Below are positions 7,024-57,886 of a DNA stretch of 64,000 bases, one piece after another. A program made the position numbers and the translations under genes. The stretch covers positions 2,294,001 to 2,358,000 of the forward strand of contig NZ_CP070501.1 in the NCBI RefSeq assembly GCF_018308945.1. The letters run 5' to 3'. The notes under the pieces were generated by a model. It was not told the origin of the DNA. It searched no databases and saw nothing but the letters and a program-made list of their open reading frames with translations. Position 1 is the first letter of the stretch, and each line of letters begins with the position of its first letter. Source of the stretch: Agrococcus sp. Marseille-Q4369. Lineage in GTDB: Bacteria > Actinomycetota > Actinomycetes > Actinomycetales > Microbacteriaceae.

Positions 7024-7104
7024 CCGCTCCTCGAACGTCGAACTTCCCCGAACGCTCGGTTCCACGCCCGGATCCCCGCGGTTCGGGGAAGTTCGACGGA
7101 GCGG
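7024..7104. repeat. Dispersed palindrome family A, copy 1
   Basis: Arms GTCGAACTTCCCCGAAC (7037-7053) and GTTCGGGGAAGTTCGAC (7081-7097) are perfect 17-bp inverted repeats around a 27-nt spacer. CCGCTCC/GGAGCGG extend the pairing outward with a small bulge. It lies between the convergent dppC-like and ATPase genes and can act as a bidirectional terminator. The arm sequence recurs at 54811-54869 and 55866-55924, so this is a repeat family rather than a lone terminator. The spacers are also related: read as the reverse complement, both this one and copy 3 contain GGATCCGGG. Confidence 0.85.
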
Positions 7105-54176: not shown

Positions 54177-54344
54177 ATGGCGACCACGACTTGGGAGTAC
54201 GCGACGACGCCGCTGCTCATCCACCGCGAGACGGCGATCCTCAACACGTGGGGAGCCGACGGATGGGAGCTCGTGCACGTCGCGAACGGTCCCGAGGGCG
54301 GGCTCGTCGCGTTCCTGAAGCGCCCGATCGAGGCCGGCGCGTGA
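54177..54344 (+). CDS. DUF4177-like small protein
   Basis: A 55-residue protein, TTTWEYATTPLLIHRETAIL then NTWGADGWELVHVANGPEGG, with the W-EY...WELV pattern of DUF4177 proteins. These are small single-domain proteins of unknown role, often encoded beside RidA-family genes in actinobacteria. The ATG at 54177 is chosen as the first start giving only conserved-looking sequence. It overlaps the next gene as GTGA, indicating co-translation. Confidence 0.8.
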   Translation: MATTTWEYATTPLLIHRETAILNTWGADGWELVHVANGPEGGLVAFLKRPIEAGA

Positions 54345-54799
54345 GCATCGCGCAGCGGCTCGAGGAGCTCGGGTTCGAGCTGCCCGCGGTCGTCCCGCCG
54401 GTCGCCTCGTACGTTCCGGCGGTGTCTGCGAACGGCTTCGTCTACACCTCCGGCCAGCTGCCGATGGTCGACGGGCAGCTGCCCCGCACCGGCAAGGTCG
54501 GCGCCGAGGTCTCGGCCGACGAGGCGATGCTCGACGCGAAGCAGTGCGCGCTCAACGCGCTCGCGGCGATCGCCGCCGAGATCGGCTCGCTCGACCGCAT
54601 CACGCGCATCGTGAAGGTCGTCGGCTTCGTCGCGTCGGCGGATGGGTTCCACGGCCAGCCGGGCGTCGTCAACGGCGCGAGCAACGTGCTCGGCGAGATC
54701 TTCGGCGATGCCGGCAAGCACGCGCGGAGCGCCGTCGGCGTCGCGGAGCTGCCGCTCGGCGCGCCCGTCGAGGTCGAGGTCATCGCCGCCTTCGCCTAA
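54341..54799 (+). CDS. RidA-family (YjgF/YER057c/UK114) protein
   Basis: A 152-residue Rid-superfamily protein. The start (SIAQRLEELGFELPAVVPPV), the core VYTSGQLPMVDGQLPRTGKV and the C-terminal VAELPLGAPVEVEVIAAFA place it in the YjgF_endoribonc-like subgroup of about 150 residues. Classic RidA deaminates reactive enamine/imine intermediates using an Arg near the C-terminus. That Arg is not in the usual place here, so this may be another Rid subgroup with a different substrate. It ends overlapping by 3 bp the stop of the convergent DUF559 gene. Confidence 0.88.
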   Translation: MSIAQRLEELGFELPAVVPPVASYVPAVSANGFVYTSGQLPMVDGQLPRTGKVGAEVSADEAMLDAKQCALNALAAIAAEIGSLDRITRIVKVVGFVASADGFHGQPGVVNGASNVLGEIFGDAGKHARSAVGVAELPLGAPVEVEVIAAFA

Positions 54800-55764
54800 C
54801 CCTCCCACCATCGAACTTCCCCGAACTCCGGGATTCCGTCGAAGAAATCCGCGATTCGGGGAAGTTCGACGTCATCGCGGTGGCGGGCGCGGATGCGTTC
54901 CACGATGGGGGCGAGGTCGTGCGCGGTTCTGGTCGGGGTTGAGACGGTGAGCCGGTACTGCTCCAGGCCGAGCCGCTGCGTCACGTTGTACCGGTCGAGG
55001 TCGATGAGCCACTGCCTCCGGTCGGTGCGGTGCTGGTCGCCCTCGACCTCGATGAGCACGCCGGAGCGCCAGAACGCGATGTCGGGCGCCATCGTGACGC
55101 CGCCGAGCACCACGGGCACGTTGCACCAGGGCTCCGCGACGCCGAAGGTCTCGAGCGCGAGCCGCACGACGGTCTCGGGGCGCGACCACGCCCGCGGGTG
55201 CAGCGCGTGCGCAGCGGCGAGCAGGCGCCGATGCCCTCGCTGCCCGGCGTGAGCGGTGACCGCGGCGCGGAGCTCGTCGCGCTCCGCGAGCGGCTCGCGC
55301 AGCTTGACGATCGAATCCCCGAGCGCGACGAGATCCTCGAAGCCGAGGTAGTCCGCGCCGTCGACGAAGGCTTGCGCGGGGCTCGAGACGCGCAGTCCGG
55401 CGTGCACGCGGATGGCTGCCGGATCAAGCGAGCGCTGGCGCCCGCGCAGGCCTTCGCCACGCGGCGCGTGCTGAGGGCTCGGCACCGTGACGTCGATGCG
55501 ATCGAGCTCACGCAGCCGGGGCGGCAGCGCGAGCCGGTAGAGCGAGGCCGCCGTGGCGTGGCTGAGCCAGGCGTTCCCGTCTACCGAGCGCAGCGCCGCC
55601 GCCGCTCGCAGCTCGAGATCGATCGGCTGCTTCGCGTCGACGTACGCGTCTCGCGCGAGCCGCACCGCGCGGCCACTGCGAAGTCGAGCTGCGCCGACTC
55701 CCGCATCCCGCGCCTCCGCACTCGAGAAGAGCCCGCTTCGAAGCGGATCCGGCAGCGCCCCCAC
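54796..55764 (-). CDS. DUF559 / AbiEi-like protein with Vsr-type endonuclease fold
   Basis: A 322-residue protein. The N-terminus (SGLFSSAEARDAGVGAARLR) resembles the AbiEi-type winged-helix start. The middle is variable. The C-terminal part has the DUF559 pattern (VLIEVEGDQHRTDRRQWLID then LDRYNVTQRLGLEQYRLTVS), related to Vsr and very-short-patch endonucleases. The GTG at 55764 fits where similarity begins. The final codons (VELPRIADFFDGIPEFGEVR) are read from a copy of palindrome family A, and another copy lies upstream of the start. Related genes are common and often multicopy in Microbacteriaceae. Biological role unknown; defence and selfish-element roles have been suggested for relatives. 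Confidence 0.75.
   Translation of the reverse strand: MGALPDPLRSGLFSSAEARDAGVGAARLRSGRAVRLARDAYVDAKQPIDLELRAAAALRSVDGNAWLSHATAASLYRLALPPRLRELDRIDVTVPSPQHAPRGEGLRGRQRSLDPAAIRVHAGLRVSSPAQAFVDGADYLGFEDLVALGDSIVKLREPLAERDELRAAVTAHAGQRGHRRLLAAAHALHPRAWSRPETVVRLALETFGVAEPWCNVPVVLGGVTMAPDIAFWRSGVLIEVEGDQHRTDRRQWLIDLDRYNVTQRLGLEQYRLTVSTPTRTAHDLAPIVERIRARHRDDVELPRIADFFDGIPEFGEVRWWEG
54811..54869. repeat. Dispersed palindrome family A, copy 2
   Basis: TCGAACTTCCCCGAA (54811-54825) and TTCGGGGAAGTTCGA (54855-54869) are perfect arms around a 29-nt spacer. The copy forms the last coding codons of the DUF559 gene and would also act as a terminator between it and the convergent RidA-like gene. The spacer aligns with copy 1 in the same orientation. 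Confidence 0.85.
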
Positions 55765-55865
55765 GCGTCGTCCATGCGCCGCATCCTGCACGCGTCGAGC
55801 CGCGCTCGCCCCGCCGAAGTGGACGCCCTGTGGATGCGCGCCGGTCCCAAGCCCGTACGCCGCGC

Positions 55866-55924
55866 GGCGAACTTCCCTCGAGCGCGAGGATCCGGGGCGG
55901 AGACCCGCCGTTCGGGGAAGTTCG
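55866..55924. repeat. Dispersed palindrome family A, copy 3
   Basis: CGAACTTCCC (55866-55875) and GGGAAGTTCG (55913-55922) form the inner arms; the left arm has diverged (CTCGAG in place of CCGAA). The spacer contains GGATCCGGG and aligns with copy 1 only in inverse orientation. It lies 19 nt after the acsA stop and upstream of the DUF559 gene. With copy 2 it brackets that gene as an inverted pair. Confidence 0.8.
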
Positions 55925-55942
55925 ACGCTGAGGAGGAGGCGG

Positions 55943-57886
<1,944 letters not shown>

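Follow-up and report, generated by a model that had tools for sequence, protein, structure and literature searches.

In the genome of Agrococcus sp. Marseille-Q4369, a gene for a predicted nuclease lies between two copies of a palindrome that recurs elsewhere in the same genome, which raises the question whether gene and palindrome belong together or share this place by chance. Here, this question was followed from the window, i.e., the whole stretch of 64,000 nt that was analyzed, to the genome it comes from (G000, one contig of 2,737,735 bases, in which the window occupies 2294001-2358000) and to related genomes, which carry the other G-numbers below.

The palindrome and the gene between its copies

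The features concerned are listed with their coordinates in the window; no strand is assigned to the palindromes.

7038..7096, no strand: palindrome copy 1, 59 bp, dispersed, between two convergent gene ends
54341..54799, plus strand: ridA (endoribonuclease L-PSP family), neighbour, its stop overlapping the nuclease gene stop
54796..55764, minus strand: AbiEi-like/Vsr-like (DUF559, MTES_1575 kin) predicted nuclease gene, 322 aa, an open frame with orthologs
54811..54869, no strand: palindrome copy 2, 59 bp, downstream bracket, where the ends of ridA and of the nuclease gene converge
55829..55834, minus strand: TCCACA element upstream of the nuclease gene
55867..55925, no strand: palindrome copy 3, 59 bp, upstream bracket, 18 nt from the acs end
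55943..57886, minus strand: acs (acetyl-CoA synthetase), neighbour

The nuclease gene is located on the minus strand between copies 2 and 3; its stop codon occupies 54796-54798, and it probably starts with the GTG at 55764, the GTG at 55791 being possible as well. A preliminary description of this DNA had the gene bracketed by two palindrome copies, and this was confirmed: copy 2 was found at exactly 54811-54869, and copy 3 at 55867-55925, one base off the earlier 55866-55924. Likewise, copy 2 does supply codons near the C-terminus of the nuclease, as had been claimed, encoding the residues VELPRIADFFDGIPEFGEVR, then WWEG. Repeat-coded C-terminal residues of this kind occur only in G000 and G407, and in the other four orthologs the bracket lies outside the frame. 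The further claim that the spacers of the two copies align in opposite orientations was not borne out: copies 2 and 3 match at 41/59 positions in direct as compared to 42/59 in inverted alignment, and their inner 29 bases at 15 as compared to 16. These matches favour neither orientation, and the argument from an inverted pair is without weight; with direct and inverted matches nearly equal, pair orientation was rejected as evidence.

Over the 15 pairs formed by the six orthologs of the gene, dN/dS was 0.23-0.53, and the nuclease gene is therefore under purifying selection. The word TCCACA/TGTGGA, seen upstream of it, occurs within 250 nt upstream of 55/64 family members and in the downstream flanks of 5/64; in some members it sits inside TGTGGATAAC, which we take to be DnaA-box-like.

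The 59-bp palindrome is composed of 15-nt arms, TCGAACTTCCCCGAA and TTCGGGGAAGTTCGA, and of 29 bases between them, which are variable and for the most part complementary; the left arm of copy 3 has four mismatches. It was read at 10 dispersed or bracketing places in G000, and the 22 two-strand matches of a covariance model suggest an eleventh copy, i.e., about 11 in this genome. The palindrome is more than chance, namely a fixed 59-bp element with covarying stems: an alignment of 18 copies, taken from three species, had 84.8% of its stem cells paired as compared to at most 59.4% when the pairing was slid, and two-sided changes were found in 26 stem cells, with 0/500 shuffles as high. The exact pattern with a 29-base spacer was present in 1/398 genomes of the family, namely the window's own, and a search of 84,980 species genomes, which may leave out the window's own record, matched the exact palindrome only in an Agrococcus MAG and in A. 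terreus. No credible Rfam family was found near the gene, where one chance miRNA match had an E-value of 0.61.

With gene ends taken from our own ORF calling, seven of the 10 copies in G000 lie between convergent gene 3' ends and three between tandem genes; six of these seven are 4-37 nt from both stops, and the seventh, copy 2, overlaps the end of the nuclease gene. Convergent pairs account for 10/51 adjacent gene pairs in the window, which against 7/10 copies gives a binomial p of 0.0008. The nuclease gene adjoins only the bracketing pair among the 10 copies. This preference for convergent ends would suit a regulatory role, in which the AbiEi-like half of the protein autoregulates via a palindrome operator, the dispersed copies act as sequence-specific bidirectional terminators or make up a regulon, and the nuclease is secondary. 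Moreover, AbiEi antitoxins have been described to bind promoter inverted repeats (PMC7319586), and some of these places are occupied in relatives by an ordinary G+C-rich hairpin. Nevertheless, we consider regulation or termination unlikely: the palindromes flank the gene on both sides and mostly occupy 3' ends rather than promoters, none of the 10 hairpins read in G000 is followed by a run of T, the catalytic-type residues of the protein are invariant, and palindrome turnover tracks gene presence more than kinship, as set out below.

Gene and palindrome across Agrococcus

At E<=1e-90, the gene is present in 6/24 Agrococcus genomes, the window's own counted, and G265 has only a 35% relative. 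Its locus is acs-ridA in G000, G401, G407 and G411 and purK-purE in G119 and G398, the neighbours having been named by Pfam in the window and in G398. The palindrome family was found on both sides of the gene in 6/6 orthologs, with one to three copies per side, at acs-ridA as well as at purK-purE; therefore, the same gene has the same bracket at two loci. Palindromes near the gene are often paired, with a 72-nt period (L086, L088, L089). Bracketing copies were compared with the dispersed copies in the loci that were read, and in most lineages they match: the bracket is closest to the dispersed copies of its own genome in G407, G411, G119 and G398, and G000 gives a tie. In G401, the bracketing copies (58 nt) fit the dispersed copies of that genome (59 nt) poorly, and its dispersed copies fit the bracketing copies of G000 as well as G000's own do.

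The abundance of the palindrome follows the gene. Covariance-model matches, which cover both strands and 150 scored candidates per genome and are not site counts, numbered 22 (G000), 57, 51, 37, 40 and 20 in the six carriers, as compared to 12 (G174), 4, 3, 2, 2, 2, 1, 1, 1 and nine zeros in the 18 genomes without the gene. The six carriers are the most palindrome-rich of the 24 genomes, and one of the other 18 (G174) is moderately rich. The model was trained on copies from G000, G407 and G411 only, and G398, G119 and G401 are therefore independent of it. Fisher's test of gene presence against abundance, which ignores kinship, gave p 5e-5, and 5e-4 once five genomes with low completeness or high contamination are set aside. 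On a tree of ridA and purE from 23 genomes (G403 left out), gene presence changes at least six times; the well-supported branches yield three independent pairs, concordant in 2.9/3 on average, which are too few to reach p 0.05. The preliminary description had proposed that gene and palindrome are associated and would have ascribed this to coincidence had orthologs lacked the repeats; with all six orthologs bracketed and abundance tracking the gene, the association stands.

The nearest relatives of the window's genome, G402 and G265, share 99% identity in ridA and 93-98% DNA identity in eight coding segments; the gene is absent from both, and nearly all palindrome copies are absent as well. At the eight other palindrome sites of G000, a copy is shared by carriers in 18/39 cases (G407 5/7, G401 3/8, G411 2/8, G119 5/8 and G398 3/8) as compared to 2/24 for the three nearest gene-less relatives, G402, G265 and G405, which hold a copy at 0, 1 and 1 of the eight sites; gene-less G174 has a copy at 2/8. 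In this comparison, 71/72 places were found, and three stretches fell short of the 600 nt scanned, two of which (~120 nt) were counted as having no copy. Hence, as observed, palindrome sites track the gene more than kinship: either loss of the gene is followed by loss of its palindromes, or carriers gain palindromes repeatedly at the same gene ends.

At acs-ridA, the comparison of junctions lacking the gene covers those genomes in which the end of acs as well as the stop of ridA can be clearly placed (G402, G265, G119, G398, G404, G384, G406, G302, G400, G359 and G410). In G402 (L093) and G265 (L094), the junction holds two copies of another palindrome, GTCGAGTAGGCCCGCAGGGCCGTATCGAGAC ... GTCTCGATACG ... 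CTACTCGAC; G119, G398 and G404 have other long hairpins there, and the spacer of G384, G406, G302, G400 and G359 measures 58-75 nt and holds a single ordinary hairpin. Where no gene is inserted at purK-purE, the spacer is ~50-340 nt long in most species, and G332, G411 and G406 carry a different member of the superfamily with one palindrome family on both sides, the G332 member being split over two frames. The purK-purE junction is a hot spot for at least two subfamilies with different palindromes (L121, L132, L133). Neither of the marks of a mobile cassette, a precise empty site or a target duplication, was found at acs-ridA, purK-purE or the eight dispersed sites, where junctions are either diverged or occupied by other hairpins or repeats; intergenic sequence diverges too fast for this. 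At the site of G402 matching 1073777 (L139), what appears by eye to be an insertion-sequence-like stretch directly follows the end of the gene.

Other subfamilies and other genera

With a 315-aa relative from A. terreus as query, members of the wider family were detected in 24/24 Agrococcus genomes at E<=1e-10. Their flanks were compared by a word test, i.e., the longest word common to the upstream and downstream 350-nt flanks with a pass at >=14, for the best-match loci from the searches; loci with short flanks were dropped (3/40 in Agrococcus, 1/30 in Microbacteriaceae). The test was passed by 25/37 Agrococcus members with full flanks, as compared to 1/42 mispaired flanks from the same genome, 1/44 for ridA/purE and 1/41 for the genes of the window. 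Pairs across genomes passed in 28/418 cases, some of them with a common palindrome family. It was failed by 12/37 Agrococcus and 15/29 Microbacteriaceae genes, and it misses visibly bracketed genes such as the window gene and L341.

Dispersal together with the gene is seen in another subfamily as well. A third palindrome family is built from inverted arrays of a 20-nt unit with GAGTGGCGCCTCCCGC as its core. Its word was counted 24-86 times in 9/9 genomes that have it in the gene flank, with 12-64 matches outside the gene's own locus, and at most three times in 14/15 other genomes. The exception, G405, has 54 copies, yet another word beside its gene. In G384 (L215), 20-nt arrays with the GAGTGGCGCCTCCCGC core were noted at at least 10 places besides the gene bracket, with 86 unit matches genome-wide. 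Of the six members that were looked at in G000 itself, four have four different palindrome families, each flanking its gene on both sides; the remaining two, a member and a short DUF559 match, show a hairpin on the downstream side alone.

Beyond Agrococcus, 61/90 Microbacteriaceae genomes have members at E<=1e-25. The bracketed layout was found there with other palindromes, the word test being passed by 14/29 full-flank loci as compared to 7/812 mispaired ones (12/27 without the two Agrococcus rows). Eight of these loci, picked for long common words, have one hairpin family on both sides, and the family differs between genomes. Sampling 400 kb of G007 and of G021 turned up a single full palindrome per genome, located apart from the members detected there. 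In Arthrobacter (Micrococcaceae), two plasmids, 0.75 and 1.0 Mb in size, carry bracketed members; one of them fails the exact-word test, its hairpins being plainly alike. Probes made from the bracketing palindromes of Arthrobacter matched 1 and 2 of 72,556 plasmid records, all from gene-carrying strains. The other replicon of Arthrobacter sp. StoSoilB13 has five matching places; at one that was read, there was no credible member within 2 kb.

These data bear on whether the palindromes and the nuclease genes gather independently in tolerant intergenic spots, with another transposase moving the palindromes. Support comes from acs-ridA as a hot spot, at which gene-less G402 and G265 carry another palindrome family, and from purK-purE, at which other family members reside. 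However, the flank words are gene-specific (1/42 for mispaired flanks of the same genome), the plasmid records matched by the bracket-palindrome probes (1 and 2 of 72,556) all come from gene-carrying strains, and palindrome abundance tracks the gene, so that we regard independent gathering as very unlikely. Plain coincidence was rejected on the abundance that tracks the gene, the word tests as compared to their controls, and the sharing of sites among carriers.

The protein, its possible action and known systems

For the window protein itself, Pfam and NCBIfam gave no match, and a PADLOC AbiEi profile matches residues 10-138 at 8.6e-11; judged from sequence, its N-terminus is AbiEi-like and of a DNA-binding type. 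Among 16 aligned members, the window protein counted, nine match DUF559, nine match REase_MTES_1575 and two match AbiEi_4 of Pfam, and the Pfam scan of these 16 at E<=0.01 returned nothing else and no HUH/Y1 transposase. Thus, the DUF559 assignment made in the preliminary description fails as a direct match and is retained by kinship, through 9/16 relatives: the C-terminus is predicted to be a Vsr/DUF559-like nuclease, an assignment that rests on the relatives. Five residues of catalytic type (D228, E239, H245, D255 and R258) are invariant in 16/16 aligned members. MTES_1575 has been described as a novel Vsr-REase (PMC3710099), and a Caulobacter DUF559 protein (VsrA) as Vsr-like with PD-(D/E)XK (PMC12907096). 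Structure models were poor (pLDDT 33 from a single sequence and 52 from three sequences), a fold search gave nothing at E <= 0.001, and a PDB sequence search with the six-ortholog profile gave no match.

The AbiEi match of the window protein to PADLOC, together with mREase_II matches of PADLOC in 6/16 members, is what would be expected of an anti-phage nuclease for which the palindromes are self-marks, decoys or mobilisation sites. The surroundings of the gene argue against such a defence function. Eight neighbours, four in the window and four in G398, are L-PSP, acetyl-CoA synthetase, a penicillin-binding protein, PurK, PurE, LytR, a UDP-sugar dehydrogenase and one without match, i.e., housekeeping neighbours at both loci, and no DUF1814, toxin or methylase domain was found by Pfam in any of the eight. 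Additionally, viral contigs scanned with one peptide pattern had no confirmed relative, and of 72,556 plasmid records, just 2 gave matches. A role in defence is therefore quite improbable in our view.

The explanation we find rather probable is that gene and palindrome are a cognate pair, which would work as RAYTs and REPs do but with an unrelated enzyme. In the mechanism we propose, each palindrome family would be read by the AbiEi-like N-terminal half of its own protein, through the conserved arms, and the predicted Vsr-like C-terminal nuclease (PD-(D/E)XK, DUF559/MTES_1575) would nick or cut the element, perhaps as an extruded hairpin or cruciform; during repair, the element would then be copied or retained at the 3' ends of genes. 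The bracketed gene would act as the source of its family, a part that RAYT genes play for REPs. Paralogs differ in their palindrome families, and genomes without the gene lack its palindromes entirely or almost so. Binding, cleavage and copying of the palindrome, as well as the direction of cause, we infer by analogy: arm-reading and palindrome-cutting are proposed because AbiEi proteins bind inverted repeats (PMC7319586) and because processing of cognate REPs by RAYTs, with co-evolution of the two, has been described (PMC8266576).

The nearest analogy is the RAYT/TnpA-REP pair, or REPtron, although its enzyme is unrelated. As described in PMC3733652 and PMC8266576, REPtrons share with the present pair a gene flanked by a dispersed palindrome (here in 6/6 orthologs, on both sides), several palindrome families per genome with family-specific enzymes, monomeric or dimeric copies near the 3' ends of convergent genes, and co-evolution of enzyme and palindrome. 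By contrast, the enzyme here is AbiEi plus Vsr/DUF559-like and that of the REPtron is a HUH tyrosine transposase, and the elements here are 59 bp long, in tens of copies, as compared to 20-40 bp for REPs (PMC3733652). The GTAG tag is missing too: GTAG/CTAC was absent from 18 aligned copies and from the 10 nt on either side of the 10 copies in G000. Membership in RAYT-REP was rejected, as there is no HUH transposase among the 16 aligned members and no GTAG tag in the copies checked.

Similarly, the N-terminal half matches AbiEi profiles, and AbiEi proteins of the AbiE type IV toxin-antitoxin system bind inverted repeats (PMC7319586). In contrast to AbiE, the C-terminus here is nuclease-like and the repeats lie on both sides of the gene and are dispersed; an AbiE pair was rejected, as no DUF1814 toxin is among the eight neighbours scanned. 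EDxHD homing endonucleases, e.g., I-Bth0305I, use a Vsr-fold nuclease for homing and reside in phage introns or inteins, whereas the gene here is chromosomal, free-standing and bracketed by palindromes. With Vsr-like/DUF559 endonucleases, such as Vsr of E. coli and VsrA of Caulobacter (described in PMC12907096), the protein would share a Vsr-type core by kinship (PF04480, PF18741), and it differs from them in that its gene is linked to palindromes.

By layout alone, the pair could also be named a REPtron variant. It is counted here as a new category because the enzyme fails the test that defines REPtrons and because, to our knowledge, no other system pairs such a nuclease with palindromes. A search of the open-access literature, with most subscription papers outside it, found no paper in which DUF559/Vsr-like genes are connected with dispersed palindromes. 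We give about even chances to a broader view, namely that there is a class of actinobacterial chromosomal nuclease-palindrome replicators, a non-homologous counterpart of RAYT-REP, in which each palindrome family is seeded and maintained by its own nuclease of AbiEi-Vsr type, several such pairs coexist in a genome, and palindromes vanish when the nuclease is lost. No mobiliser is known for some dispersed bacterial palindromes, such as the CGTC-tagged REPs, for which PMC3733652 reports no dedicated transposase. Should palindromes be maintained by their own Vsr/AbiEi-type nuclease, this would be a second, non-homologous route to REP-like elements, and a common gene family of unassigned role would thereby gain a directly testable substrate.
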